Made by a program: the position numbers and the translations under genes. A stretch of 25,949 nt of DNA from a virus, in IMG/VR virus record IMGVR_UViG_3300042319_002693, positions 1-25,949 of that record. The stretch is one strand, 5' to 3'. How positions within the stretch are numbered: position 1 is the stretch's first letter; each line of letters starts with the position of its first letter. This document shows, piece after piece, positions 1,553 to 20,611 of this stretch. Below the pieces are notes generated by a model that did not search any database, was not told the DNA's origin, and was given only the letters and a program-made list of their open reading frames with translations.

Positions 1553-1815
1553 TCTGCTGTTCTCTTTCCTACATAAACGCCATAAATTGATATTTCAAAA
1601 TTAAATGTCTTACCATTATAACTAATTGTAAAGTCTGTGTCAATATCATACCTTGGAACATATCCATCAGACCTCATTCCAGCAATAATCATAGCGGCGT
1701 ACTGCTCTTTCAGTCTTACAATATGAGCATCGTCATAAATCTCACCATCAAGGCTAAATCTTTTTATTGACTTATGAGCGTACATACCATCAATTATATC
1801 AATGGAATTAGCCAC
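1474..1815 (-). CDS. Hypothetical 113-residue protein between methyltransferase and primase
   Basis: I do not recognise this protein. It has an N-terminal part rich in helix formers (residues about 25-47) and then a likely beta-strand section (DFTISYNGKTFNFEISIYGVYVG) near residues 60-82. No signal peptide or membrane segment is seen. The start is a GTG whose G is the last base of the methyltransferase TAG stop (TAGTG), so it is probably translated by reinitiation. Its last 79 nt overlap the start of the primase gene. Tight coupling to both neighbours suggests a role in replication or DNA modification, but that is only guilt by association. Confidence 0.7.
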   Translation of the reverse strand: MANSIDIIDGMYAHKSIKRFSLDGEIYDDAHIVRLKEQYAAMIIAGMRSDGYVPRYDIDTDFTISYNGKTFNFEISIYGVYVGKRTAECIEGMDKNKPVMASSTQRIKSEEVC

Positions 1816-2777
1816 TATATCATTTTTTCTAGTCTTTTTACTGCTTTTTCATAGAACTTATGTTCTCTTTCAATTAACACTGGAACTCTTTTTAGTATTA
1901 TTGATGCCTCTCCAGTTGACCCAGACCCAGCAAATGGATCAAGAACTACATCTCCTACTTTTGAATATAGCGAAAGAAGGTATTGTAATAGGTATACTGG
2001 CTTTTCTGTTGGATGTATTCTATTTCCAGATTTTGATGGCAAAGATATATGATTTGGAATACAAGCTTGAAGATACCTTTCTCCATCTTTATATTTATAC
2101 ATATTATTTACTCTATCTAAAATAATTTGATTACCATTTACTAGAACATCTTTTACTAAATTAATTACTGAGTCTATATGAGTATCATCTTCAAAATTAC
2201 TTTCTAACAAAGATTGGCGGACTAAGCTATTTACTATAGATGATGCCTTTTCTGCAACCACTACTGCTTCTATAATTTTATTATCAATATTTTGATTTAC
2301 TATTTCAACATCAGAGTTAAATGTAGCCTTGCTTCCTTTAACCCCAACAATTATATACTCAACAGCAGATGTTGGCATATATGCTCTATTAATTGGAACA
2401 GCATTTGGTTTGGTCCAACTTATAACACGCCTTGGAGAAAGACCATTTTCTTTAAGTGCATCAATAAAATAAGATATGTAAGAATCTGCACAAAATATTG
2501 CAAAGTTTCCACCTTTTTTAAGAACACGATTAAACTCACTAGACCATTTATAAAGCTCTTTAATAAAATCTTCGTGACTAAAAGTATCCCATTCTTCTTG
2601 TGTATCTGAGTCAAACTTATAAGAATGAATTGTGTTGTCTTTATATGTATGGAAATTTGTTTCTCTTGCTATGTTAAATGGTGGATCTGTTAAGATAAAA
2701 TCAATGCTATTATTTTTAATATTATTGTAATTGTCATCATTAAATATGATATTCTCAATTTTTAAAAGATCATCCAT
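1815..2777 (-). CDS. DNA N4-cytosine/N6-adenine methyltransferase (beta-type order)
   Basis: The 320-residue protein transfers a methyl group from S-adenosylmethionine to an exocyclic amino group in DNA. The catalytic motif DPPF is at residues 31-34 and the cofactor-binding motif DPFAGSGST at 280-288, preceded by HPTEKP at 255-260. Having the catalytic motif before the FxGxG motif marks the beta class. Residues about 150-240, between the two halves, lack family motifs and probably form the target-recognition region. Its start overlaps the stop of the HNH gene by 8 nt, and its stop overlaps the next gene by 1 nt. It may protect phage DNA from host restriction, from the neighbouring nuclease, or both. 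DPPF does not by itself separate N4 from N6 methylation. The target sequence cannot be read from the sequence. Confidence 0.9.
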   Translation of the reverse strand: MDDLLKIENIIFNDDNYNNIKNNSIDFILTDPPFNIARETNFHTYKDNTIHSYKFDSDTQEEWDTFSHEDFIKELYKWSSEFNRVLKKGGNFAIFCADSYISYFIDALKENGLSPRRVISWTKPNAVPINRAYMPTSAVEYIIVGVKGSKATFNSDVEIVNQNIDNKIIEAVVVAEKASSIVNSLVRQSLLESNFEDDTHIDSVINLVKDVLVNGNQIILDRVNNMYKYKDGERYLQACIPNHISLPSKSGNRIHPTEKPVYLLQYLLSLYSKVGDVVLDPFAGSGSTGEASIILKRVPVLIEREHKFYEKAVKRLEKMI

Positions 2778-3489
2778 TGTATTCTACTTTTTCTAAAAAC
2801 TTTTCTGGATATGCAAATGGACAGCTTGTACAATCATTTTCATTCTTAACAAACTCTAGTCCTCCACCAATTTTTTCTGGTATTTTTATTCCTAAAAACA
2901 TATTTGGCTTTTTATTACTGCTTATACATCTTTCACAAACTCTTGACTTATACAAGTTATTATCTCTTGATAATAGCTGATACTGATTTTTTACTTCAGA
3001 TACACTTTTTATGTCCACCTTTTTTTCAATACTTTCATCACTAATTAACATTCTTGCGACTGGAATTCTATGATCAATTTCTGGATTAGTTGTAACTCTT
3101 ATTTGAGTAAAAGAGTCTTTTCTATCAAGAATGCTTCTAATGCTTGATATTTCTTTTGGAGTATACTTGGCTCTAGCATAATCATTTCCAGTAATGTACG
3201 GATAAACAACTGTGTCAACAGTGTCAGTTCTTTTATGAATAAGGCATTTTCTTTTTTTACTTTTTGGAATATTTACCCCAGCATTTCTTAATTCACGAAC
3301 CTGTCCAGCTATTTGACCAATGTCTATGCCCTTACTTATTAACTCACCTCTAAGGCAGCATCTAGTTATGCCATTTGAATTCTGAAGTATTATTTTTAAA
3401 ACCTCTTGAGATTTAAATCCTTGTGCAAAGTTTGACTCTTTTAAATAGTTTAACAAGTCTTGGTGTGTTAATACCTTAATGTATGTCAT
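2770..3489 (-). CDS. HNH (beta-beta-alpha metal) endonuclease, possible restriction enzyme partner of the methyltransferase
   Basis: The 239-residue protein starts at the ATG at 3489, with AGGAA 6 nt upstream. A longer frame reaches 3558, but that would overlap the helicase gene by 50 nt. The N-terminal 75 residues are helical and resemble a winged-helix/HTH unit (ELISKGIDIGQIAGQVRELR). The C-terminal half carries EIDHRIPVARM (Asp139-His140) and NQYQLLSRDNNLYK (168-181). Two Cys pairs follow (Cys185/Cys188 and Cys220/Cys223) that fit a zinc-braced HNH fold. By family it would cut or nick double-stranded DNA. Placement directly before a methyltransferase suggests a type II restriction enzyme. 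A free HNH nuclease used in packaging, recombination or homing is the alternative. Confidence 0.7.
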   Translation of the reverse strand: MTYIKVLTHQDLLNYLKESNFAQGFKSQEVLKIILQNSNGITRCCLRGELISKGIDIGQIAGQVRELRNAGVNIPKSKKRKCLIHKRTDTVDTVVYPYITGNDYARAKYTPKEISSIRSILDRKDSFTQIRVTTNPEIDHRIPVARMLISDESIEKKVDIKSVSEVKNQYQLLSRDNNLYKSRVCERCISSNKKPNMFLGIKIPEKIGGGLEFVKNENDCTSCPFAYPEKFLEKVEYNG

Positions 3490-3508
3490 ATATGTTCCTA
3501 AATTATTT

Positions 3509-4723
3509 CTATTCAAAATCTTTATAAATAAAGCGACCTGAATCAAAGTCAATGTCAATCATAAACTCTCCACAAAATCCATGACGATTCTTTCTAAATA
3601 TGCACTCTAAAATGCTACTACCAGCAGCACGACCAAGTGCAAGTACCCAGTCAGCATCATAGGCTAGTTGCTTAGACCATGCAACTTGACCAAGTGATGG
3701 AACGCTGTTCATATCTGTAGCATCATCTGGTGTTGCAGAGGCAATAGCAATAACTGGAACTTGAGAAGAAATTGCAAGAACCTTTAACTCTCTAGAAATA
3801 TTCTTAATCTTAACAACTTCGTTGTCATTTCCTTGATTAGAATTCATAAGCTGGATATAGTCAATAAATACAACATCTGGAGAATACTGATCAATTTTAC
3901 CTCTAACAATAGAGGGAGTTACTTCTCCAAGACCGTCATTAGAAACAATGTAAAATGGTGGTTTATCTTTTAAATGCTGCTTTGCCCAATTTTCAAAACC
4001 CTCAATGTCAACTGTCCCTGCACTTAGTTTTCTATGAGAAAAATATCCTTCTGCCATAATAGTGTAGACACGATTTCTAACTTCTTTTTCTGTCATTTCA
4101 AGAGAAACAACTAGTGGTACTTTTCCAGCTTTCCACGCTTGTACAGCCATAAAAATAGCGAGCCAAGACTTGCCAATGGCAGGGTAAGCAAGAAGAATAC
4201 CAAACTGACCAGGAGTAATGCCACCAGGTAAGTAGTTATCAAAACCTGCCAAATTTGTTCTAACACCATGAATTCCTTTCTCACTTAATTCTTTAATGTG
4301 CACAAAGTGTGCAGCAGCATCTTCAATATCTGTTGCATCAATATCTCTTACATCTGCACTAATTCTTTTAAGGTCTGATGTTTTAGAAATAATTGTATTC
4401 AAAGCCTCTACTGGCTGATTATCATTTAATTGTTTTGCACTTGACATTAAAACATTTCTTAAATTATCTTCAAGATACTTAGTTCTAAGTTCTTCCAAAT
4501 GGTGCTTTGTTGAACCAATTTCTCCAACTGGTTGAAAATCTCTAAACTTTTCTACAAGTAGTGACTGTGTTGGTACATTAGAATTTTGCTCATAATAATT
4601 CTTTACAAAATCCCAAACGTCTCTGTGTGTTCTAAATAGACTATCTGGGTTTGCTTGAAAAAGAACGTGTATCTGCTTATCATTTAATACAGCAGACAAC
4701 ACCTTTGCTTCTAAATCAACCAT
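3509..4723 (-). CDS. DnaB-like replicative helicase
   Basis: The 404-residue protein should unwind DNA ahead of the phage fork as a RecA-fold hexamer. The Walker A is AYPAIGKS (residues 179-186), the Walker B is VVFIDY (284-289), and QVPVIAIASAT (321-331) lies in the position of the later helicase motifs. The first 120 residues look like a reduced DnaB N-terminal helical domain (IHVLFQANPDSLFRTHRDVWDF). Length fits phage members of the family. The ATG overlaps the stop of the 102-residue gene as TAATG. Gene order helicase, nuclease, methyltransferase, unknown, primase, ssDNA-binding protein shows that replication and DNA modification share a transcript. Confidence 0.9.
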   Translation of the reverse strand: MVDLEAKVLSAVLNDKQIHVLFQANPDSLFRTHRDVWDFVKNYYEQNSNVPTQSLLVEKFRDFQPVGEIGSTKHHLEELRTKYLEDNLRNVLMSSAKQLNDNQPVEALNTIISKTSDLKRISADVRDIDATDIEDAAAHFVHIKELSEKGIHGVRTNLAGFDNYLPGGITPGQFGILLAYPAIGKSWLAIFMAVQAWKAGKVPLVVSLEMTEKEVRNRVYTIMAEGYFSHRKLSAGTVDIEGFENWAKQHLKDKPPFYIVSNDGLGEVTPSIVRGKIDQYSPDVVFIDYIQLMNSNQGNDNEVVKIKNISRELKVLAISSQVPVIAIASATPDDATDMNSVPSLGQVAWSKQLAYDADWVLALGRAAGSSILECIFRKNRHGFCGEFMIDIDFDSGRFIYKDFE

Positions 4724-5765: not shown

Positions 5766-6200
5766 CTAAGAGCTAATTCTTTCACCAATTGCTATGATTG
5801 AAACATCAGCAGAAAAAGCACCACTAGTTGCGGAAGAAAAAACATTTACATTACATCCATTCTGTGTTACTCTTTCTAAAACTGCATATAGACTTGAAAC
5901 TCCAGTTACAGCAGTTACTGAACAAAGTACTACTGGAGTTGTTTTAAAAATTCCAGAGAAATCGAATGTCGCTGGAGCGTTTGGCTGTACAGAAAGGTTT
6001 GCATCAACAATTTTTAAAGTTTCTGCATAGAAAGCCAAGTCTCCAGTTCTAGGCTGTGAAGGTGTGGCAGTATCTCTATATTTAATTTTTGATATACCCT
6101 TACTTATAACCTGAGAAATGTTATTAATTTCATTTACTATTCTATATAGATAGGATATGTCAAGTGGTTGACCCCTATCTGGTGTTTCAATTTGTGCCAT
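5766..6200 (-). CDS. Tail-tip protein with H-type-lectin-like C-terminal domain (putative)
   Basis: The 144-residue protein has an N-terminal helix (about residues 14-40, DISYLYRIVNEINNISQVIS) that could trimerise or anchor it to the tail. Its C-terminal beta domain starts near residue 80. The pattern of that domain (FSGIFKTTPVVLCSVTAV, then alternating hydrophobic strands to the end) resembles the small lectin folds often found on phage tail fibres. It is the last structural gene before the replication block. AGGAGA lies 6-7 nt before the ATG, and a perfect extended -10 lies just upstream. A receptor-binding or base-of-fibre role is inferred from fold pattern and position. Confidence 0.62.
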   Translation of the reverse strand: MAQIETPDRGQPLDISYLYRIVNEINNISQVISKGISKIKYRDTATPSQPRTGDLAFYAETLKIVDANLSVQPNAPATFDFSGIFKTTPVVLCSVTAVTGVSSLYAVLERVTQNGCNVNVFSSATSGAFSADVSIIAIGERISS

Positions 6201-8808: not shown

Positions 8809-11800
8809 TTAAACCTCCATAACCCTTAGTTGACTTTTAACATTTGAAGAAGATCTTCCATACTGGGCAGATATTACAACAAACCTTTTATTTTCATCTA
8901 CCATTTTTACTCCTTCTGGCAAGTCAAAATTAATTTTAACAATGTCTCCAAGTTGAACGTGTGCCGTTCCAAAAGTATCTATTTCAAACACCTTTCTTGG
9001 TCTAATTGTTTTATCTAAAATCCATTTCATAATATCTTTTGCAGAATCTTCATTTTGAATATAAACAGAGTCAATTGAAAATGATTTACTACCATAAATA
9101 GCCCTGCTATTTCTAACGCTATCATAAACTTTTTCAGACCTTCCTGGAGAAATAATTAAATTGCTGCTTGTAATAACTGGATCAGAGAAATTTGATAGCT
9201 CTTTGAAATAATCATCTACCGTTAATACGTTAGAAATATTTTGAGTGAATGTAATTCCCTGAATCATAATTCTATTTGTTGAGCTTTCACTTAAGTTAAT
9301 AGCCTTATCTGTTGTATTAAATATTAAAAATTCAGCCCCATAAGATCCTGGCAAAAATCCAGAAACTTCATAAGATTTTTCAAAAGTAAATGGTGGCACA
9401 ATTTTTGCAATAATAGCTGGATATGCTTGATCATATTTAATATTAAAATATGCACACTCACGAAGGATTGTTCCAAATTCTTCAAAGTAAAAGTCTACAG
9501 TTGGTCTTGTTTCAGTTCCAATAGAAGACAAATACGTTCTTTGAATAGCAGCTGGAACAGAATACTTTCTTAAAGATTCTGCAGAAACAGCCTCACTAAT
9601 TTTTTCAGATATAGGAGTATCTGTTTCTTTTATATTCTTTATAGCATAAATATTTTCAAACATACACTTACTTGATCCTCTTGTGAAAAGTCCAGTCTTT
9701 AGTCCAGACTGCGGCATTTGCAAAGGATTTGTATCACTAACTATTCCAATCAATCTATTATTTAAATATATAGAAAAGTCTATTCTATATATGCCAGAAG
9801 CGTTCCTATATGTTTGTGCATCAAGTGCTAAATCATAAACTGGTATATCTTGAGAAGTAAGTCTATCAGATCCTACAAACTTTCCTTCATCTACAAGGAT
9901 TCTTGCAAGGGATCCCCAAAGTTTTCTAGGAACTGCAATATTTTGTTTTCCAGCAATTTGAGGAGAGTATGTAGTTTTTTCAACTTTATAAAAGATAATG
10001 TTTTCAACAACTTCTGTAAAGTTAGCAGATGAACTTACAGATGCCGAACCTTTATCAAAATAGGATAAAATGTCTGAAGATAGTGATGCTATTTCAAGAT
10101 AATATCCAGAATTTGTACTTGGATCAAGCATATACCCTATGCCTCCAGCTCCTCCAGATAGCTCAGTTATGTCTGTGCCTAAACTTTCTATTTTAAAAAG
10201 AGGTATAGAATTTAATGCAGACTGATTCTTATCGTCTTTTTGTTTTCCAATAATTCTCATTCGAGTTCCAACGTGCCTGTAATCTGTATCTAAATCTTTA
10301 TAGATGCAGTTAACTAAATCTGTTGCAGTTAATCCTGAATAAGGTGGAACTGGATATGGTCCATTAAAAATTAATGCAGATGATTGAATTCCTCCAACAC
10401 TTTTTTGATCATAGCTAGAGAATCCTTCTGACCTTGAAGACTGCTTCATAAAGTTAGCAATTTTACTAGTTATTGAACTTTTATTTTTAGACTCTACATC
10501 ATTTCCAAGTGGGGTACCTAAAACTGAATTTGATACTGGTAAGTTTTCTATCAACTCTAGTGGTTTTGTGCTAAATATCTTACTTGAGTCCATTCTAAAA
10601 GATTGTCTATTATTAATGTTTTCCCAGTATGGATCTAGACCTGCAAAATGGCTTGCAACCTTTGTTCCAAACTGACCTCTACCGTGAGATCTTACTGGAC
10701 CATTCTTGTATCTAACATTTTCTTCCAGCTCTTCAAAGTTTGCTCCAGAAGCATTTTCATAATAAGGCTCTGTATAAATTCTAAGTAGTCCAGTTAGTGT
10801 CATTTTTCCATTAAATACTAGCTGAGAAAAATATTTTTGATACTCATTGTTGTTTGTTATCCAAACAAGACCATTTGTAGCAGATGCAGATGGTGCGTCA
10901 ACTTGATACTGCTGTGCATCATATCTTATAATTTCTCCATTTGCATATAAATATCCCTGAAATCTTGGAAGCCAAAAAGCACTTTCTCCAACATCTATCG
11001 TGTTATTTATAACCTGATGATTTACAACAGTTGGCACAACACTTCCAAGACTGGTTCCAAGTGGAACTGCTCCAAGTGCATAACCAACATTTCCTGTTGG
11101 TTGATTAATTGTCCTTAACTCAGGCTGGTCTCCAATTTCCCATAAAATAGAACTTTTATATCCGTAAGTTCTTTCACTTAAACTTAAACTTGCCTGTTCT
11201 AATTTTGAAACTTCTCTTTGAATATATCTTGTTGTATAGTTAATTTGTCCATCATTTAAAATTTTTGTTTCAAATCCAGCAATTGCTTCGATATTAGGAA
11301 CAATGTTTTCAACCCTTTGTCCATAAAGAGTTGTTAGTCTTTCAGCAATGGCTGAATTTTCGTCTCTTACTGAAATGTCTGGCATTAAATATTCTTTTGG
11401 CATAACTACAAAATTATTGTACTCGTCAAAAAACATTGCTGTTTGAGTTGCTTTTGCAAGTCTTTGCAAAACTTCTGCGACTGATATATCTGGCTCAATA
11501 AAGAAAAATGGAACTACTGGATCATTAGCAGTGTTTATATTTTTAAATACATAATTACTAAAACCAATATTGTCTAATAGTAGTGCAACTGCCATGGTAA
11601 GGGTACAGCTTTGTAAAAATATTGGCGTAGCTTTATTTGACTCTAAAATAAAATAAGCATCTCTTAAAGTTAGTGATACATCTTGTAAACCACTTGTTGC
11701 AATAGCAGAGTTTTCTGAGTAAAAAGTTTTTAGTGGGACAAACTTGTCAAATCCATTTACATCAAAGATAGCTTCGTAAAAATCAAATTTAATTTGTGGC

Positions 11801-13281
11801 TTAAGAATATTTGATATAAGGCTTCCAGTATTAGTAGTTTTATTAAATACATTTAATTCTGTAAATACTCCGTCATGGTTTGATAAATTAACTGCTCCAG
11901 TAGAAGCTACAAGTCCTCCTACTGGCAATCCAAAATCTGTTGCCATAATATTCTTATTAATGTCATAATCCAAAACGTAGTCTGTTATGTCAACTTTTAG
12001 TCTTGGAGATATTTCAATTAAGTCAAATGGCTTATTTGGGGCATTCATTGTTTCTACAACAACTCTAACACCTTTAATGAAAACAAAATCTCTATATGTG
12101 TTAAGACCTTCTACAATAAAATAATCTGGATTTAATATTTTTTTAATTAACCCTATTCTTTTTGTATCATCATCTTCTAATAGTGAAAATCCATATTCTA
12201 CTTCATAAGTTTCCCAATCTTGATCTGTTGCATTCCAAACAAAAAGTGTACCAGCTTGAGATGTTGAACTTCCAACTACATAGGAATCTCCATCTACAAT
12301 ATTTCTATTTACATAGATTGGATCTGGTAGCTGATCTTCTGAGTCTAAGTATTGATATAGATGAAAATTTGTTTTAAATTTTTCAGGTACTTTGATTCCA
12401 TAATATAGTTCTACATGACCATCCCATGGGACTATTCTTGAACCGTCTCTTCTTGTAGAACTTTCATTAAATACTGTTGCATCTATCCAGTTGTTACTTG
12501 AATTAAGATATTGAATCTTCCATTTTTTTGGAACAGAAGACTTTGTTATATCTTGCAATGGGTCTGGAAATAAATTATTATTGCTTCTAATTGTTCCAGG
12601 AACCAAAAATTCTCCATTAATTCCCACTGCTGTTGGATCTGCTAAATTAGTTTGCATCTTTACAACTATTCTATTTGTTGCAACTTCTTCTTTATATACT
12701 ACAAATGGTGCACAGTCATCTATTTTATATGAAACTTCTCCTGGAATAATAGATGTTGAAATAGCACTTGATATTCCAAATTCTTGTCCAGACTCTTTTC
12801 TATAAGAATTCCAATATTTAAACTTATCAAATCTTGAAGAAAAATAGTATCTTGGTCTTTTTCCAGACCTGATGCTGTCTACAAACTTTGTATTGTTTAT
12901 ATTTGATTCTCCAAAATAAATAATTTTATTAATTCCAGACCTTGGTCTGAAAGGATTTAAGCAATCTTTTAAAGAATAGTAAAGCTCTCTATTACTTTCT
13001 GTTGTAAGAAAGGTAAGAGGCTCATTTGGATCTTCTGTTTTGTATTGAGAAATTGAATTTGACTCTAAAGCATCAGTATAGACATTTGCATTGTCTTGTG
13101 AGTCATATTCTGGATATAAAGTTCTATAAACAACACTTGCACTATCTGGTCTATATCTATAGTTTCCATAATTTTCAAGGTTTAACAAATCATTTTGATT
13201 CCATTCAGCAATAATTAAAGAGTCTATGGATATACTATTTTTTGTTTGAAGGTGGTTTATTAAATCATTATCTAAAAACAT
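8809..13281 (-). CDS. Large tail hub/tip protein (minor tail protein, 1490 residues)
   Basis: This is the second largest gene. The central part (about residues 405-640) has the pattern of tail-hub/baseplate proteins: LIEISPRLKVDITDYVLDYD at 421-440, and IEPDISVAEVLQRLAKATQT at 595-614, followed by FFDEYNNFVVMPKEYL. Residues about 985-1215 look like a LamG/concanavalin-like sandwich (YRIDFSIYLNNRLIGIVSDT; GLKTGLFTRGSSKCMFENIY), often a glycan-binding or cell-wall-contacting module. The C-terminus (VFEIDTFGTAHVQLGDIVKI) is strand-rich, as in tail-hub beta-barrels. It follows the tape measure and a small tail protein, the usual place for the hub through which DNA exits. No peptidase or lysozyme motif was found. 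The start overlaps the preceding stop (TAATG) with GGAGG upstream. Confidence 0.8.
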   Translation of the reverse strand: MFLDNDLINHLQTKNSISIDSLIIAEWNQNDLLNLENYGNYRYRPDSASVVYRTLYPEYDSQDNANVYTDALESNSISQYKTEDPNEPLTFLTTESNRELYYSLKDCLNPFRPRSGINKIIYFGESNINNTKFVDSIRSGKRPRYYFSSRFDKFKYWNSYRKESGQEFGISSAISTSIIPGEVSYKIDDCAPFVVYKEEVATNRIVVKMQTNLADPTAVGINGEFLVPGTIRSNNNLFPDPLQDITKSSVPKKWKIQYLNSSNNWIDATVFNESSTRRDGSRIVPWDGHVELYYGIKVPEKFKTNFHLYQYLDSEDQLPDPIYVNRNIVDGDSYVVGSSTSQAGTLFVWNATDQDWETYEVEYGFSLLEDDDTKRIGLIKKILNPDYFIVEGLNTYRDFVFIKGVRVVVETMNAPNKPFDLIEISPRLKVDITDYVLDYDINKNIMATDFGLPVGGLVASTGAVNLSNHDGVFTELNVFNKTTNTGSLISNILKPQIKFDFYEAIFDVNGFDKFVPLKTFYSENSAIATSGLQDVSLTLRDAYFILESNKATPIFLQSCTLTMAVALLLDNIGFSNYVFKNINTANDPVVPFFFIEPDISVAEVLQRLAKATQTAMFFDEYNNFVVMPKEYLMPDISVRDENSAIAERLTTLYGQRVENIVPNIEAIAGFETKILNDGQINYTTRYIQREVSKLEQASLSLSERTYGYKSSILWEIGDQPELRTINQPTGNVGYALGAVPLGTSLGSVVPTVVNHQVINNTIDVGESAFWLPRFQGYLYANGEIIRYDAQQYQVDAPSASATNGLVWITNNNEYQKYFSQLVFNGKMTLTGLLRIYTEPYYENASGANFEELEENVRYKNGPVRSHGRGQFGTKVASHFAGLDPYWENINNRQSFRMDSSKIFSTKPLELIENLPVSNSVLGTPLGNDVESKNKSSITSKIANFMKQSSRSEGFSSYDQKSVGGIQSSALIFNGPYPVPPYSGLTATDLVNCIYKDLDTDYRHVGTRMRIIGKQKDDKNQSALNSIPLFKIESLGTDITELSGGAGGIGYMLDPSTNSGYYLEIASLSSDILSYFDKGSASVSSSANFTEVVENIIFYKVEKTTYSPQIAGKQNIAVPRKLWGSLARILVDEGKFVGSDRLTSQDIPVYDLALDAQTYRNASGIYRIDFSIYLNNRLIGIVSDTNPLQMPQSGLKTGLFTRGSSKCMFENIYAIKNIKETDTPISEKISEAVSAESLRKYSVPAAIQRTYLSSIGTETRPTVDFYFEEFGTILRECAYFNIKYDQAYPAIIAKIVPPFTFEKSYEVSGFLPGSYGAEFLIFNTTDKAINLSESSTNRIMIQGITFTQNISNVLTVDDYFKELSNFSDPVITSSNLIISPGRSEKVYDSVRNSRAIYGSKSFSIDSVYIQNEDSAKDIMKWILDKTIRPRKVFEIDTFGTAHVQLGDIVKINFDLPEGVKMVDENKRFVVISAQYGRSSSNVKSQLRVMEV

Positions 13282-13865
13282 TATACCTCCTCAAGAGCAA
13301 TAGAAACATCCCAAAGGTCGTGATTTGTTTGACCTCTTTTTACAACATTATAACTAAAATCTGAAAAGAAAACTTCTAAAACATCGGAGTACTTATCAAG
13401 TTTGCCATAAACATCTACAGAAAAATTCTGAGGTTTATCATAAGATATAAATACATAAAAGGATCCAGGATTAGACTCGTACCAGTCTAAGAGTTCTGAC
13501 CCACCAGCTCCACCATCAGCAGTATATTCAACTAAGTTACTAACATACTGACCACTTGCACTAAAAGACTGTTCTCCACTGAAAGATCTGGAAGGGAGAA
13601 GGCTGTAAGAAAAAGAAATATTTACTTTATCTGCAATATGGTAAGAACGCATATGACCATTTACCATTCTTTTTCTGTTTTCAAGTCTATTAGTGCTAAA
13701 AGAAATGTCACTTCTATTATGATCAGATAAGATTATAAAGTCTTCCCCTTCAGTTCCAATAATCTGTGGAACACCGTCTATAATTCCTCCAGAGTTGTTG
13801 GAAAAAATAACTGCTTGAGGTCTTGTATACTTTTTTCTACCAGACAAATATGCACTGCTAACCAT
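13281..13865 (-). CDS. Tail protein directly after the tape measure (distal-tail-like, putative)
   Basis: The 194-residue, beta-rich protein (for example VNISFSYSLLPSRSFSG; DVLEVFFSDFSYNVVKRG) ends with LWDVSIALEEV, a pattern typical of tube-like tail proteins. It lies between the tape measure and the large hub gene, where siphoviruses usually encode the distal tail (Dit) protein or a minor tail protein that closes the tube and anchors the hub. It is coupled to both neighbours by TAATG overlaps. The name is positional; no diagnostic motif was recognised. Confidence 0.65.
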   Translation of the reverse strand: MVSSAYLSGRKKYTRPQAVIFSNNSGGIIDGVPQIIGTEGEDFIILSDHNRSDISFSTNRLENRKRMVNGHMRSYHIADKVNISFSYSLLPSRSFSGEQSFSASGQYVSNLVEYTADGGAGGSELLDWYESNPGSFYVFISYDKPQNFSVDVYGKLDKYSDVLEVFFSDFSYNVVKRGQTNHDLWDVSIALEEV

Positions 13866-16800
13866 TAATATCTACTACTCCTTAAATTTCCTCTATTTTG
13901 ACTTGAAATTTTTGCCATAACTACATTTGCAATCTCATCTGGTGAAGCATTAGTTCCAGAAACATTTACATTTACGTTATATGTACTATTATACATTGGT
14001 GAAGAGTTTGAAACATTGTTTAAGTTGCTAACTGGAACATCTGGTGCTGAGTTTTCTGGAATAGAGTATCTTGGAGAACCAATTCCTTCTAAGAAATTAT
14101 TTGTAGGAACTTGAGAATTACCACCAATTTCAGGGAATACTTGACCATTTAGTTTTTCTAAAAAGCCTCCATATTGTTTTGCAACAGGCTTTCTTACAAC
14201 AAATTCTCCAGGGGTAAGGAGTGCAGGAACTTTATCAATCATACCTACTCCTGGGACAGTACTTCCATAGTTCATTCTTAATGCTGGAGGATTTTCTGTT
14301 GAACCTTTATAAGCAACTCCTCCAAAAGCCATTTTTGAAACGGGACCTCCATAATTTTGCATTGCAAAGTCTCCTGCAGTTCCAGGAGAGTCTGCATTAT
14401 AAGATTTTGCTCCTGCATTAAAATCTTTTATAAGAGTTGCTAAAATCTTTTCTTGCGCCTTAGTAAGCTTTCCTTGAGCTTCTAATTTTTTAAGATCTGT
14501 AATCAATTGTTTTTGCTGTATTAAAAGAAGTTTTTCTTCTTGTCTGGCACGTTTTTCTGCTAAGCCTAGTCTAGCTGTTTCAATCTTATACAGACTATCT
14601 TCAATTACTTCAATTTCATCAGAAAGTTTTTTATTTCTACCTTGAATCTGTTCTCTTGTTAAAAGTTGACCATTTACAAGAACTGTTATTGATTCAAGAT
14701 CTTTTTGCCTTTGCTCTTCTAAAGCTGCTCTAGCATCTTCAATTCTATACTGTGCCTCTTGTTGCTGTATTTCTCCAGATATTGTTGCTGCAGCTGCAAT
14801 GTCTCCAGAAGCTAAAGCTGATGCAAGGCTTATTCTTGAACTTTCTTGCTCTGCAAGTCTATCATTTGCTTGAGATACCTTATCTAAAGCCTCTGCTCTC
14901 TTGTCATATTCTTTATTTATTGCATCTTCTTTTTCTGAAATTTCATCAAGGGCTCTATTATTAAGTTCTACCTCTCTTTGCTTACTTCTTAAAAGCTTTT
15001 GTTCTTTGTTTGCCTTTTTATCCAAAGCCTTTTCTTGTAAATCTAATCTTTGAAGTTCTCTTTCTCCTGCAGACATAGAAAGAAATGCTGTTGCTCTAGC
15101 AACTGACATCTGTTTTTCTGCAAGTTTTATAAGATCTGCAAGAATCTTCTTTCCTTCTTTTCTTATTTTACTATTCTTAGATTCTATCATTGCATTAGCT
15201 TCTAAAAGTCTTTTTTGATCAATTAGTGCAACTGCTTCCATTTTTGCAGTTCCAAGATATTTTAAAGTTACTGCTAAATATTTTTGTTTTTCTCTTGTAG
15301 CTGCTTTAAATTCTGCAACATATTCTTGAAGAGTTTGTTTAGCTTCTTTTGTTCCACCAGTTCCAGTGGTTCCAGTAGTTCCAGTCGTTCCAGTGGTTCC
15401 AATGGAGCTAAACTGAGCAAGAAATTCTCTAGCATTTTCTCCAGTTCTTTCAAAATCATTCTTTGCTCCTGGTCCACCTTTTATTTCTGTTTTTGCTCTA
15501 ATTTCTACTAAAATATCAACAGTTTTTATTACATTAACAATTTCATTATCTGGAAGTGCCAAAATAGCTTCATAAGAAAGTTTGAACTCTTTTAAATAAT
15601 CTGCAGTAACATTACTTTTAACTTCTAAACTTTTTTCACTGTCTGAAAGACTTTCAAATCTCAAGTATTCGTTAACTAGATCTTGAATTCTTACAGGATC
15701 TGGATTTTTTATATCAATTATTAAATCAATGTTTGGAACTGATTCTAAAACTCTTAAGTTTGAAAACAAGGAATCTATTTCTTTTGTAGGAATTCCCTTT
15801 TTTATCATTTTTTCTAGTAGTGGAAGTTGGTCAAGTGAAATTTGATTAGAAAGTAGTTTGTCAAATATTTGTGGATCAACTAATGCAATTCCTTTTTCTA
15901 TTTCAGAAACTATAGACTCTGCCATAGTTGCATCCATGTCATCACTAATAAAAGCTTGCTTTAAAGCTTCCTTGCCTTCTGTTACTATTGCTTTATACAC
16001 TGCCTTACCCTTAGAGTCTTCTCTTGCTCTAGCCTCTCCAAGAGCCTGTGCTTGACTAGCTTCAAGCGTTGACATTCCAGTTGTATCAACGTTTAAGTTA
16101 GACAACTGTTCTTGTAGTTTTAATTGCATTGCTGCAGTAGAATCAAACCCTAAAGCTTTAGCATTTGCATTATCTACAAAGCTAGACCCTTGTTTTGCAT
16201 TAGATCCAAGCTTTGTCTCTTGTTCTAAATATTCCTTTAGTTTAATTGTTCCTTCTTGATATGCAAGATTTAGTAGTGCTCTTGACTCTGCTTCTTTTGT
16301 TAAGGATGAAGCATTTTCTTCAGAAATTTTATCAATTGCAAATTGTTCAATAAAGCTTTCTTTCCCACCTGTAAAAATCTCTCCAAATTTTTCTGCAACA
16401 TTTAAATTACTATAAGCCTTTTCTGCATCTTTTTGAATTTTTTGACTATTAATTTTTGGACTAATTTCTGCAGTTATCTCTACAATGTTGTTAACAATTT
16501 TTTCACCATTAGGACCAAGAAGTGATGATAGTTGTCCAGAAACTTCTACTGAAAGATTTTCATCATTTAAAGCTTTTCCAATATCTATTGAAATTGCTTT
16601 TGCTTCTTCTGGAGTTATGGCTCCTGCTATTATTGAAGATGCAAGTTGATTTCTTAAAGCAACAGAAACATCTTCTCCAGATTTTTTAACAAGCTCTAAG
16701 TCTTTTATAATTTCAGCAGCTGCATCAGTTTTCATAAATTCACTAGAGGCAGCTACAGACTCTTGAGTTATTTCTTGTCCTCCAGCTTTTTCTACAGCTT

Positions 16801-19800
16801 TTCTTCTTAATGCTGAGGCATTTGTTTCTCTTCCAAAAGCATCAGCCATTGCATTTGTAGTTTTTGCAGATCCATACATTGCTTCTGACAATGCTGCCCC
16901 AGATTTTCTTGCTTCTTCTAAACTTTTATTTAACTTATAAATTGCAAATCCTGCAAGTGCTAATGGTGCGGCAACTCCAACAAAGGCTGCTGTAGAGACT
17001 CCTATTGCAGCAGCAGCAGCTGCAGCAGCTTTAGGAAGCATTGGTCCAATAATAGATCCAGCAATTCCAGCCATTTCATTTCCACCAGTCAAAGCTTTTC
17101 CAGCAGAATATCCAGCCATGCCTCCAACCATTGTGCCAGCAAACCCTCCAACTCTAGAGGATGCTACTCTACCAACTCTGCTAGAGATAGTACCTTTTTG
17201 GAATTTTGCAATTTCAGCAGCAGATGCAAATTGTCCATTAGGTCTTCTAAATCTTCCATCTTCTCCTTGAACTAATCCACCTTGTTGATAACCTTGGACA
17301 TTTCCACCATTCATCATTTCAAGAATTCCTTGATTTTGACTAGCTGCTTTTTTATTTACAACAAATTCTCCAGGGGTTAGCATTGCTGGAACAGTGTCAG
17401 TATTTCCAGAACCTGGAACTGGTCCACCTGAATTAAGTTTTATTCTTTTCTTTGTGACAGCACTAAGAAGAAGGCTTAACATTTTTTTAGAATTTTCTGA
17501 AGATCCTAAAGATTTAAGAGTTTTTGGTAAAGAAATGTTTGTCCCCTTTATACCAACTATGCCCTTTGTACCATCATTAAAAGTTACAAGCCTTCCAGAA
17601 CTTCTTACATTTCCCTTATTTGCCCCCTTAGTGGCAATCACAGGCTCATGACTTATTATCTTTCCTTGTTTAACAAGTTCATCAAGGTTTAAAGATCCAC
17701 TTCTTAATGCAGACATTGAACTAGAGTTTATGGTGTTTCCATCAAAAATTTTAAATAACTCACTTATATTTTTTTGATCAATTCCTGAAGATTTTAAACC
17801 TTTAATAACTGCTCTAGGAATTAATCCAGAAGTTAGAGGACCTTTATTTCCATAAAGTATTCTATCAGATATGGTTGTAATTCCTCTACTATGCATTCTT
17901 TGTAGATAGTCTGAAACAGATGCATGAACACTTTGTGAAGCTTTTAATATTTGTCTTTCTGGAACTCCAGAATTTTTTAGCATAGCTTCGTAAGGATTTT
18001 TTCCACTCTTAAACAAATCATCCAACTCTTTTATAAAGTCTAAAGTTTTTACAGTAGGGTTTGCTGACTTAGTTAATGCTGTATTGGTCCTACTACTTAT
18101 CTCAAAACCTAAATTTCCAACAGCTTTCCAATTATTCCAATTATTTAATCTTCCAGCTTCCAAGTCTGCAAGTTTATTAATTTCAGAACTACTTGGATTT
18201 TTTGGAAAATTACTTTTATACTGTTGGTATATTTCTTCAAAGAAATCATTTCTAATTTTTGGATTATCATTTGAAACAATATTTTTTTGCATGTGTGCAA
18301 ATGTCATTCCTGTTTGCTGCTTTGGAGAAGATCTTCTTATTGAAGATACTTTATCTCTTCCAGTAGCACCAAAGCCTATGTTTCTTACAGCGTCTTCCTC
18401 ATTTAAAACATTACCACCTTGACTAAATTTTTGAACTCCACCATCATTTATTGCCTTAAGTAGTCCAAGATTATTTTTAGTTGCTTCTTTATTAACAACA
18501 AACTCACCAGGAGTTAGCATTGCTGGAACAGTATCTGTGTTTCCTACACCAGGAACTCCACCACCAGCATTTCTTCTTATTCCTCTTATTCTAACGTTAG
18601 CACCCTTTGCAGCATTTGTTCCAGCAGCACTAGCAACTCCAAATGATGGAAGTGCTCCTGCAGCACCCTGCGTTGCAATCATTGAACTATATGCCTTTGT
18701 CAAGTTAGCAATTGCTGCTGCTGCTGCATTTGCTGTTCCAACCTGTTGTATAAGAGTTGTATTTAAAACTTGACTTGCCCCAGAAAGTTGTTGGGCAGCC
18801 ATAGCTGCATCCATTTCAGCAAGGCTTAAATATTTAGAACTTTGAGTTAGTGCTCTAAAAGCTCCAATTGGACCACCTGTAATAAAACCCTTTGAAAACA
18901 GTGCCATTCCTTGTGTCATTTTTGCAAGAGTTCCAACAAGGTTTAAGAATAAACCAGCAAGCATTGTTACTGCTGGAACTACAACACCAACAATAACTGC
19001 AGCAATAGCAGCAAATTTCTTTTGACCATCTGAAAGGCTATTAAATCCTTCAACAATTTTTGTAATAAAATTAACAACTGGGATTGCAAGTTGAACAAAT
19101 AGTTGACCAATAGGAGCAATTGCTAGTTTAAATCTTTCTACTGCCCCTGTTAATTGCACACCAAAAGATTCTTCAATTGTTTTTAATTCTTTATCTGCAG
19201 TTGCACCAAGTTGTTCAGTGCTATACCCCATTGTTGCAATTACTTGTTGAGCTTGAGACCCTTCTCTAGAAATATTTTCAAACAATGCTCCAAGTTTTGC
19301 ATATTGGAATTTTCCAAATACCTGCTCAAGAGCCTGTTGTCTTGAAAACTGATCAAGGGATGCTAAGGCTTGTGCAAAAGATTGAACAGTACCCATCAAA
19401 TCTCCACGATTTGCTTGAATAATTGTTTCAAGATTTATACCCATACCATTCAACATTTCAGTTGCCTGTTTTGTTGGGTTAATTAACGAAGCAAGACCAG
19501 ACTTTAATGCGTTAGCACCTTCTGCTGCATCCACTCCACCTTCTTGCATTGCTGCAAGGAAAACTGTAAGATCTTTCACATCTCCACCAAGACCTTGAAT
19601 AACTGGTGCAACACGAGGAATTGCAGCAGCAATATCTTGCAAGGAAACAACAGTTTGGTTTTCAACCATATTTAAAAAGTTAATGGTGTCTGCAAGATCT
19701 TGTCCAGATAATCTAAATGCAGATTGCAAAGATATAGTTGTTTCAAGTGCTGCATTCTGATCCATTTGACCAAGTGTTGCAAGTCTTGTTGCTTGGGAAA

Positions 19801-20611
19801 CTGCATCAGTAAGGTCTGCATTTTGCCTACCAGCAGCGGCAGCTTGAGCAGCAAGACCAATAGTATCTTTTACTGCAATACCATATTTTGTATATTCAGA
19901 TGCAAGACCTTTGACAGCTTCTAAATTTTTATTTAGTTCTGCTGGAGTTGTAAAAATATCTCCATATACCTTTTTAAAAGCTACCGCTTGTTTTTCAAGT
20001 TCCATAAAAGCTTTTCCAGCAGTTGCTCCAAATATTGTAAGTGGAACTGTAAATCCAACCATAAGCTGACGACCAGCCCACTGAACATTTTTACCAAAGT
20101 TAATCAGCTGTGTTGTTCCTTGCTTAAACATGTTAGAAAGAAGTTGAGTTCTTTGTGCAGCTACTGCTGCTTCTGAAGAAAATGCAGCAAGTGGTCTAAC
20201 TGCTAATGCATTTTGAAATCCGTTTGCAGCACCAGATGTGGCTATGAATTGTGTTTGAAGTCTTTTTGCACGTTCTGCAGCGAGTGCCATAGTTTCTGCT
20301 GCCATAGCACTATCTTTATTAAATTTTGCACTAAAAAATTGCCCAAGAGATGTTTTACCCTTGGACAAGTTTTTATCTAAAGTTGCGGCAGCTGTTGAAA
20401 GTCTTACTGTTTCTGCTGTAAATAATCCAGTTTTATTAATTGCACCTTGCAATTCTCTAGAATATTCAGTTGCAAAAGTTCCCTGTGCCTTATTACTCTT
20501 GTTAAGAGCTAAATTAAAAGCATTAATCTGGGTTTGCAAAGCTTGAAGTTGAGACGCAGCACTACCTGTATTAATCTCAATATCAATAATGCCTTTTGCT
20601 ACTTCAGCCAT
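13865..20611 (-). CDS. Tail tape measure protein (2248 residues)
   Basis: This protein sets tail length during assembly and is expelled on DNA ejection. Residues about 200-440 match the TP901-1-type tape-measure core (FMELEKQAVAFKKVYGDIF; TRLATLGQMDQNAALETTIS; FLAAMQEGGVDAAEGANALK). Hydrophobic segments lie near 533-562 and 1190-1224 and could cross the host membrane. Three copies of a module with core VPAMLTPGEFVV occur near residues 685-710, 1064-1087 and 2117-2140. A Gly-Thr-Thr tract near 1737-1754 comes from a 9-bp repeat. Residues about 1760-2080 are Lys/Glu/Ala-rich, long coiled coil. Residues about 720-1060 hold an unrecognised domain. The ATG overlaps the chaperone stop (TAATG) with GAGGTGG upstream. 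Size implies a long tail, a few hundred nanometres at most if mainly helical. Confidence 0.95.
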   Translation of the reverse strand: MAEVAKGIIDIEINTGSAASQLQALQTQINAFNLALNKSNKAQGTFATEYSRELQGAINKTGLFTAETVRLSTAAATLDKNLSKGKTSLGQFFSAKFNKDSAMAAETMALAAERAKRLQTQFIATSGAANGFQNALAVRPLAAFSSEAAVAAQRTQLLSNMFKQGTTQLINFGKNVQWAGRQLMVGFTVPLTIFGATAGKAFMELEKQAVAFKKVYGDIFTTPAELNKNLEAVKGLASEYTKYGIAVKDTIGLAAQAAAAGRQNADLTDAVSQATRLATLGQMDQNAALETTISLQSAFRLSGQDLADTINFLNMVENQTVVSLQDIAAAIPRVAPVIQGLGGDVKDLTVFLAAMQEGGVDAAEGANALKSGLASLINPTKQATEMLNGMGINLETIIQANRGDLMGTVQSFAQALASLDQFSRQQALEQVFGKFQYAKLGALFENISREGSQAQQVIATMGYSTEQLGATADKELKTIEESFGVQLTGAVERFKLAIAPIGQLFVQLAIPVVNFITKIVEGFNSLSDGQKKFAAIAAVIVGVVVPAVTMLAGLFLNLVGTLAKMTQGMALFSKGFITGGPIGAFRALTQSSKYLSLAEMDAAMAAQQLSGASQVLNTTLIQQVGTANAAAAAIANLTKAYSSMIATQGAAGALPSFGVASAAGTNAAKGANVRIRGIRRNAGGGVPGVGNTDTVPAMLTPGEFVVNKEATKNNLGLLKAINDGGVQKFSQGGNVLNEEDAVRNIGFGATGRDKVSSIRRSSPKQQTGMTFAHMQKNIVSNDNPKIRNDFFEEIYQQYKSNFPKNPSSSEINKLADLEAGRLNNWNNWKAVGNLGFEISSRTNTALTKSANPTVKTLDFIKELDDLFKSGKNPYEAMLKNSGVPERQILKASQSVHASVSDYLQRMHSRGITTISDRILYGNKGPLTSGLIPRAVIKGLKSSGIDQKNISELFKIFDGNTINSSSMSALRSGSLNLDELVKQGKIISHEPVIATKGANKGNVRSSGRLVTFNDGTKGIVGIKGTNISLPKTLKSLGSSENSKKMLSLLLSAVTKKRIKLNSGGPVPGSGNTDTVPAMLTPGEFVVNKKAASQNQGILEMMNGGNVQGYQQGGLVQGEDGRFRRPNGQFASAAEIAKFQKGTISSRVGRVASSRVGGFAGTMVGGMAGYSAGKALTGGNEMAGIAGSIIGPMLPKAAAAAAAAIGVSTAAFVGVAAPLALAGFAIYKLNKSLEEARKSGAALSEAMYGSAKTTNAMADAFGRETNASALRRKAVEKAGGQEITQESVAASSEFMKTDAAAEIIKDLELVKKSGEDVSVALRNQLASSIIAGAITPEEAKAISIDIGKALNDENLSVEVSGQLSSLLGPNGEKIVNNIVEITAEISPKINSQKIQKDAEKAYSNLNVAEKFGEIFTGGKESFIEQFAIDKISEENASSLTKEAESRALLNLAYQEGTIKLKEYLEQETKLGSNAKQGSSFVDNANAKALGFDSTAAMQLKLQEQLSNLNVDTTGMSTLEASQAQALGEARAREDSKGKAVYKAIVTEGKEALKQAFISDDMDATMAESIVSEIEKGIALVDPQIFDKLLSNQISLDQLPLLEKMIKKGIPTKEIDSLFSNLRVLESVPNIDLIIDIKNPDPVRIQDLVNEYLRFESLSDSEKSLEVKSNVTADYLKEFKLSYEAILALPDNEIVNVIKTVDILVEIRAKTEIKGGPGAKNDFERTGENAREFLAQFSSIGTTGTTGTTGTTGTGGTKEAKQTLQEYVAEFKAATREKQKYLAVTLKYLGTAKMEAVALIDQKRLLEANAMIESKNSKIRKEGKKILADLIKLAEKQMSVARATAFLSMSAGERELQRLDLQEKALDKKANKEQKLLRSKQREVELNNRALDEISEKEDAINKEYDKRAEALDKVSQANDRLAEQESSRISLASALASGDIAAAATISGEIQQQEAQYRIEDARAALEEQRQKDLESITVLVNGQLLTREQIQGRNKKLSDEIEVIEDSLYKIETARLGLAEKRARQEEKLLLIQQKQLITDLKKLEAQGKLTKAQEKILATLIKDFNAGAKSYNADSPGTAGDFAMQNYGGPVSKMAFGGVAYKGSTENPPALRMNYGSTVPGVGMIDKVPALLTPGEFVVRKPVAKQYGGFLEKLNGQVFPEIGGNSQVPTNNFLEGIGSPRYSIPENSAPDVPVSNLNNVSNSSPMYNSTYNVNVNVSGTNASPDEIANVVMAKISSQNRGNLRSSRY
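14191..14261 (-). repeat. PGEFVV module, copy 3 of the tape measure
   Basis: This encodes VPGVGMIDKVPALLTPGEFV, the most diverged of three copies (Met-Ile-Asp-Lys in place of Asn-Thr-Asp-Thr). It is followed by Arg-Lys-Pro and a Gly-Gly-Phe-Leu motif near the C-terminus of the protein. Confidence 0.8.
15351..15404 (-). repeat. 9-bp tandem repeat, six units, inside the tape measure gene
   Basis: On the plus strand the unit is GTTCCAGTG, and the six units differ at only one to three positions each. It encodes alternating Gly-Thr-Thr on the minus strand (residues about 1737-1754), forming a flexible linker between two parts of the tape measure. Because the unit is 9 bp, gain or loss of units keeps the frame, so this is a natural site for length variation. 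Confidence 0.85.
17351..17420 (-). repeat. PGEFVV module, copy 2 of the tape measure
   Basis: This encodes VPGSGNTDTVPAMLTPGEFV. Nucleotide identity with copy 1 (18491-18560) is high, suggesting duplication or conversion between copies. It precedes the GGNVQGYQQGG tail of the module. Confidence 0.85.
18491..18560 (-). repeat. PGEFVV module, copy 1 of the tape measure
   Basis: This encodes VPGVGNTDTVPAMLTPGEFV, followed by a Gly-Gly-rich tail (GGVQKFSQGG). It marks the N-terminal edge of the unrecognised domain at residues about 720-1060. Confidence 0.85.

Follow-up and report, generated by a model that had tools for sequence, protein, structure and literature searches.

The window, by which we mean the whole stretch of DNA analysed here (virus record G000, 25,949 bases), belongs to a tailed bacterial phage from freshwater and carries, on the minus strand within its replication operon, a nuclease gene and a DNA methyltransferase gene that we interpret, with a probability of roughly three in four, as a type II-like restriction-modification (R-M) cassette held as optional cargo, in which the nuclease most likely cuts unmethylated CATG and the methyltransferase most likely methylates the adenine of CATG at N6 (m6A). 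The sequence-only reading of this locus had proposed a phage-borne R-M unit, and that proposal is supported here by the match of the nuclease to restriction enzymes, by the joint gain and loss of the two genes, by the occurrence of the methyltransferase's relatives mostly in bacterial R-M-like loci, and by the erasure of CATG from phages that carry the nuclease alone.

The nuclease gene (2770-3489, 239 aa) reads from an ATG at 3489 down to 2770, with a probable ribosome-binding site, AGGA, about 7 nt upstream of that ATG (3496-3499), and encodes an HNH/Cys4-zinc protein that is a candidate restriction endonuclease. Its stop region overlaps the start of the methyltransferase gene by 8 nt (2770-2777), and this second gene (1815-2777, reading from 2777 to 1815) encodes a 320-aa beta-class N6-adenine/N4-cytosine DNA methyltransferase whose match to PF01555 (E = 5e-41) scores 141.5 bits against a cut-off of 26.7. 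The slot that the two genes occupy is bordered upstream by a DnaB-like helicase gene (3509-4723, phrog_19, E = 1.5e-68) and downstream by a gene for a 113-aa protein (1474-1815, phrog_17515), beyond which lies the primase gene (599-1552, phrog_47, E = 3.1e-49); all of these features, like the motifs and domains given below, are on the minus strand. This is the layout first described for the locus, with the nuclease ahead of an overlapping methyltransferase and both between helicase and primase, and its coordinates are borne out. In relatives both frames are under purifying selection, with dN/dS values of 0.08-0.24 for the nuclease and 0.07-0.14 for the methyltransferase, and since the frames are conserved in this way we take both to be real genes. 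Elsewhere in the window, the tail region contains very long open reading frames of 2,248 aa (13865-20611) and 1,490 aa (8809-13281), and a weak H-type lectin match is found at 5766-6200.

Presence and absence across 80 loci found through the helicase, together with the junction sequences, define the whole cassette as 1815-3508, the stretch that is missing where the helicase gene directly precedes the 113-aa gene. The pair is present in 3 of these loci (L023, L024, and L027, which correspond to pair contigs), neither gene is present in 77, and in no locus does one occur alone. Both genes are present in five contigs, the window, G002, G003, G004, and L004, and L003 is a further carrier found through the nuclease. 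A locus with a 97% identical helicase (L022) lacks the pair, and there the helicase gene is only a few nucleotides from the next gene. At least 3 changes are required to account for the pair on the helicase tree, which argues that both genes are gained or lost together. When the whole records of 27 pair-free relatives were searched, the nuclease was not found and only two PF01555 genes turned up, both elsewhere in their records. Two pair-free loci, L106 (G020) and L107 (G012), have a different PF01555 methyltransferase of 247-249 aa elsewhere in the genome, apparently as an orphan. The junction between the helicase and the 113-aa gene is a place in the replication operon where accessory genes are accommodated, with other cargo in L064, L070, L071, L073, L077, and L079-L084; in more distant relatives this cargo includes GLEYA/PA14, collagen-like or fibre-like genes, an EndoVII HNH gene, and a weak match to a 2OG-Fe oxygenase.

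HNH genes of phages are often mobile, and the nuclease could on this view be a free-standing homing-type HNH enzyme that inserted beside an orphan methyltransferase, the two functions being unrelated and the methyltransferase serving only to evade host restriction. An EndoVII-type HNH gene occupies the same slot in one relative (L077), and other phages carry the nuclease as a free-standing gene, but within the window's phage group neither gene occurs without the other, and the nuclease has no match to homing, NUMOD, HNH, or EndoVII models in Pfam and PHROGs or, by hhalign, to one EndoVII-type HNH. A homing enzyme also has a long and rare target, so the genome-wide loss of a 4-bp site described below would not be expected of it. 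We give this explanation a slim chance.

The sequence-only reading had set its R-M proposal against a match to homing or packaging-associated nucleases alone; what we find is a match to type II restriction enzymes. The window protein matches the PADLOC REase_II model PDLC03537 over residues 131-201 (E = 1.6e-7), and a distant relative (L006) matches it over residues 75-215 (E = 4.5e-8), collinear with positions 70-209 of the 244 in the profile, the name of this model, like that of PDLC03458 discussed below, being tied to no particular enzyme. The C-terminal domain holds the motif E137-x-D139-H140 ... N178xxK181 ... C185xxC188 ... C220xxC223, and in an alignment of the phage family with two IceA-family enzymes 12 columns are invariant, including the E, D, H, N, and K positions and the four Cys. 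These columns, together with hhalign, delimit an HNH catalytic and zinc-binding domain (EIDH, N178, CxxC...CxxC) at residues 133-233 (2791-3093). Over the same columns, 133-233, hhalign aligned the nuclease profile with three IceA/NlaIII-family enzymes at a score of 42.9 (probability 83%), whereas 100 column-shuffled controls reached 22.9 at most, the reversed profile scored 14.4, and an EndoVII-type HNH scored 14.6 (probability 0.3%). The HNH label originally given to the protein is thus correct on the strength of the E-x-DH...N...CxxC...CxxC motif and the PDLC03537 match, with no Pfam model, those for HNH included, matching the window nuclease. The curated cut-off of PF05315 is likewise not reached, there being no match at E <= 1 for the window nuclease or its relatives, and we therefore regard the nuclease as remotely related to the IceA/NlaIII enzymes and do not file it as a member of PF05315. 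Searches of GenBank phages, plasmids, PDB, Pfam, and PHROGs returned no usable match to the nuclease, the sole PHROG match being phrog_29409 (E = 0.005, over 39 residues), and the genome contigs and 396 genomes from each of two actinobacterial samples likewise yielded none that could be used.

In the methyltransferase, the invariant motif IV, TDPPF (2676-2690), precedes the invariant AdoMet-binding motif I, DPFAGSG (1920-1940), which is the motif order of the beta class (IV - insert - X/I), and DPPF in motif IV favours N6-adenine as the base that is modified. Between the catalytic and AdoMet-binding halves, alignments place an insert of ~95 aa (2028-2315), a candidate target-recognition domain, that is common to actinobacterial relatives and is lacking in short DpnA-like enzymes. 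PF01555 is a family common in phages, and the best full-length relatives of the window enzyme are not phage enzymes; they are found in freshwater actinobacterial MAGs (L124-L131), where they are 47-54% identical along their full length, the insert included. An REase-like gene lies beside the methyltransferase gene or convergent with it in L124-L129, and the PADLOC type II REase model PDLC03458 matched in all three of these loci that were scanned (L124, L125, and L128; E from 3e-18 to 2e-17), while L130 has no REase-like neighbour among its listed ORFs. In L131 the methyltransferase relative is followed by a gene for a 206-aa protein, PD-(D/E)xK-like by eye, and then by an IceA-family HNH gene (PF05315, E = 1.5e-24). 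The restriction gene of the actinobacterial loci is usually non-HNH and convergent, whereas the window nuclease overlaps its methyltransferase and is co-directional with it. CATG stands at 0.45-0.85 in the actinobacterial genomes that bear the methyltransferase, which is uninformative.

A second group of phages encodes the nuclease at 53-56% identity, in contigs of 89.8 kb (G001), 49.5 kb (G005), 47.3 kb (G006), and 30.1 kb (G007). In the first three of these the gene sits in a region of small genes, and the copy in the fourth is cut by the contig edge. These contigs are fragments, within which we found no DNA methyltransferase, since searches returned no PF01555 gene in any of the four, no PF02086 gene in G001, and no [DNS]PP[YFW] or C5-type motif in any ORF of at least 100 aa. 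All four have a CATG count of zero where 298, 182, 161, and 89, respectively, would be expected from trinucleotide counts; counting was done on slightly overlapping pieces, and the zeros were confirmed on the joined contigs. CATG is also the site of IceA1 and is most likely what this nuclease family cuts, and we infer that the window nuclease shares this specificity with its 53-56% identical relatives.

CATG has a bimodal distribution in 80 loci related to the nuclease-only group through the terminase, at ~0 in ten of them, clearly lower in three, and 0.6-1.2 in the rest, and the terminase tree places zero-CATG in two separate lineages, one of them a clade and the other G007 elsewhere on the tree. 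Short fragments that have zero CATG and no nuclease say little either way, since in G001 some 20 kb separate the nuclease from the terminase. A zero count is found in 4/4 nuclease carriers and in 0/14 nuclease-free records of at least 40 kb (Fisher p = 3e-4, with kinship uncorrected and, for most of the 14, with CATG counts taken from the locus or from pieces in place of the whole contig). Nested in the zero-CATG clade is G840 (91.7 kb, with a terminase 96% identical to that of G001), in which the genes that flank the nuclease are present, the nuclease is absent from the syntenic place, and CATG occurs 93 times against 291 expected.

If CATG had instead been lost under restriction of this site by the hosts, then the nuclease would have been kept for some other reason, such as replication, repair, or packaging. 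Precedents for such host pressure exist in these same phages, in that CCGG is absent or nearly so throughout many phage contigs and the window group and some terminase relatives lack GGCC; neither follows the nuclease, so both look like host effects, probably of restriction pressure. Most long phage records in which CATG was counted also have somewhat less of it than expected (~0.3-0.9), from which it appears that a host effect also acts on this site. Host pressure does not readily account, however, for a zero count that accompanies the nuclease in at least two lineages, for the reappearance of the site in G840, where the nuclease is missing, or for CATG being the only one of the low 4-mers seen to track the nuclease and at the same time the site of the enzyme family to which homology independently points. 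We consider it unlikely that host restriction explains the loss.

The carriers of the pair, by contrast with the nuclease-only phages, keep CATG, with observed/expected counts of 30/63, 96/148, 49/85, and 25/43 (0.48-0.65). Pair-free relatives, at 0.62-0.63 of expectation on full contigs, resemble them, and none of the 80 helicase relatives is near zero, the minimum being 0.43. An apparent depletion of CATG in pair carriers as compared with non-carriers (0.49 vs 0.85 in a first sample) was gone on full contigs. Since pair carriers are no more depleted than their pair-free relatives, nothing in the composition of the window itself points to CATG. We think it reasonably probable that these phages protect themselves from the nuclease in two modes, one in which a methyltransferase is carried and CATG is kept, presumably methylated, and one in which there is no methyltransferase (G001, G005, G006, and G007) and every CATG has been purged, with the site drifting back when the nuclease is lost, as in G840. 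The cassette at 1815-3489 contains no CATG in the window and 1 in four carriers together, where ~15 would be expected, counts that are not independent of one another; its source may have been a genome devoid of CATG.

AlphaFold, Foldseek, and the Pfam model HTH_39 point to an N-terminal winged-helix domain in the nuclease, at approximately residues 9-92 (3214-3465), as a candidate DNA-recognition domain. In an AlphaFold model built with eight sequences the winged helix is predicted fairly confidently (pLDDT mostly 75-93 over residues 11-100) and confidence is poor in the C-terminal half, where the catalytic domain lies; the best Foldseek matches of this low-confidence model are winged-helix regulators, all weak and none at E <= 0.001, and HTH_39 matches weakly in relatives of the nuclease. 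This N-terminal half is not confidently alignable with the IceA enzymes. It is also more diverged in the window than the C-terminal half (dN 0.19-0.20 vs 0.04-0.07) and more diverged than the neighbouring genes, and the other carriers agree among themselves over this half; the window may hold a recombined allele.

The winged helix would also fit a modification-dependent type IV enzyme of winged-helix/HNH architecture that cuts m6A-methylated host or phage DNA. Known fusions of this kind, of similar size (224-283 aa), are m6A-dependent (PMC11037411), and a virus-borne case is known (PMC10101028). Methyltransferase genes are, however, rare right beside such enzymes, and in the window group the nuclease is paired with one. 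Yet such an enzyme, paired and co-mobile with a probable m6A methyltransferase, would be in conflict with its own partner unless the sites of the two differ, the nuclease-only phages, in which no methyltransferase was found, need not have erased an unmethylated site, and it is with type II enzymes of the IceA family that the catalytic domain can be aligned. This makes a type IV enzyme very improbable in our judgement.

As an R-M cassette, the pair would occupy the slot between the helicase and the 113-aa gene as optional cargo, and its winged-helix/HNH nuclease would cut unmethylated CATG. The co-translated beta-class methyltransferase, which we infer to act on CATG, would add N6-methyl-A at this site on phage DNA, such that replicating phage DNA would survive and unmodified DNA of the host or of rival phages would be cut; in the nuclease-only group no site would be left in the phage genome to cut. 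The benefit to the phage would presumably be degradation of host DNA or exclusion of competitors. Several observations count against this reading: the nuclease falls short of PF05315 and its catalytic domain is modelled with poor confidence, the methyltransferase is of another type than the methylases of the IceA loci L204 and L206, most of its bacterial relatives adjoin another kind of REase-like gene, and CATG is no lower in pair carriers than in relatives lacking the pair. The window helicase is closest to Streptomyces phage helicases (38.8%), and this, together with the freshwater actinobacterial relatives of the methyltransferase, suggests that the host is probably a freshwater actinobacterium.

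The nearest parallel at the level of the whole system is the CviAII R-M system of the Chlorella virus PBCV-1, in which a restriction enzyme and an m6A methyltransferase share the site CATG (PMC7248222). As there, a virus-encoded restriction enzyme would be adjacent to its methyltransferase (m6A in PBCV-1, putative here) with CATG as the proposed common site, and where PBCV-1 DNA keeps CATG in methylated form, the phages with the pair keep CATG with methylation presumed. PBCV-1, however, is one of the giant viruses and infects a eukaryotic alga, while the window comes from a bacterial phage; unlike CviAII, the window cassette is optional cargo in a replication operon and has sister nucleases without a methyltransferase. 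At the protein level, the EIDH...N...CxxC...CxxC catalytic core of the nuclease aligns with IceA1/NlaIII (PF05315), and iceA1 has been reported to encode a functional NlaIII isoschizomer, a CATG enzyme, in work cited in PMC2816704. The window nuclease differs from these enzymes in falling below the PF05315 model and in its N-terminal part, and its partner is a beta-class PF01555 enzyme, as opposed to the D12-like methylases found at the IceA loci L204 and L206. Orphan methyltransferases of phages belong to the same PF01555 family, but the window adds to this a linked, co-mobile nuclease.

According to a standard review, genes for type II restriction enzymes are rare in bacteriophages (PMC4081073). 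A phage with such an enzyme as cargo of its replication operon would have turned a bacterial defence into a weapon against the DNA of its host or of its rivals. More novel than the phage-borne R-M pair is the form in which the nuclease stands alone and its site has been erased, and in the open-access literature, which we covered in part, we found no account of a phage that is protected from its own restriction enzyme by having lost every copy of the target site. These phages suggest that a restriction enzyme can be carried without its modification enzyme if all of its target sites have been deleted. If this is confirmed, a 4-mer with a count of zero that tracks a single gene would be a signature by which such nucleases could be found and their specificity predicted from sequence alone, and the enzymes of uncultured freshwater phages would come with a simple, testable prediction, namely CATG.
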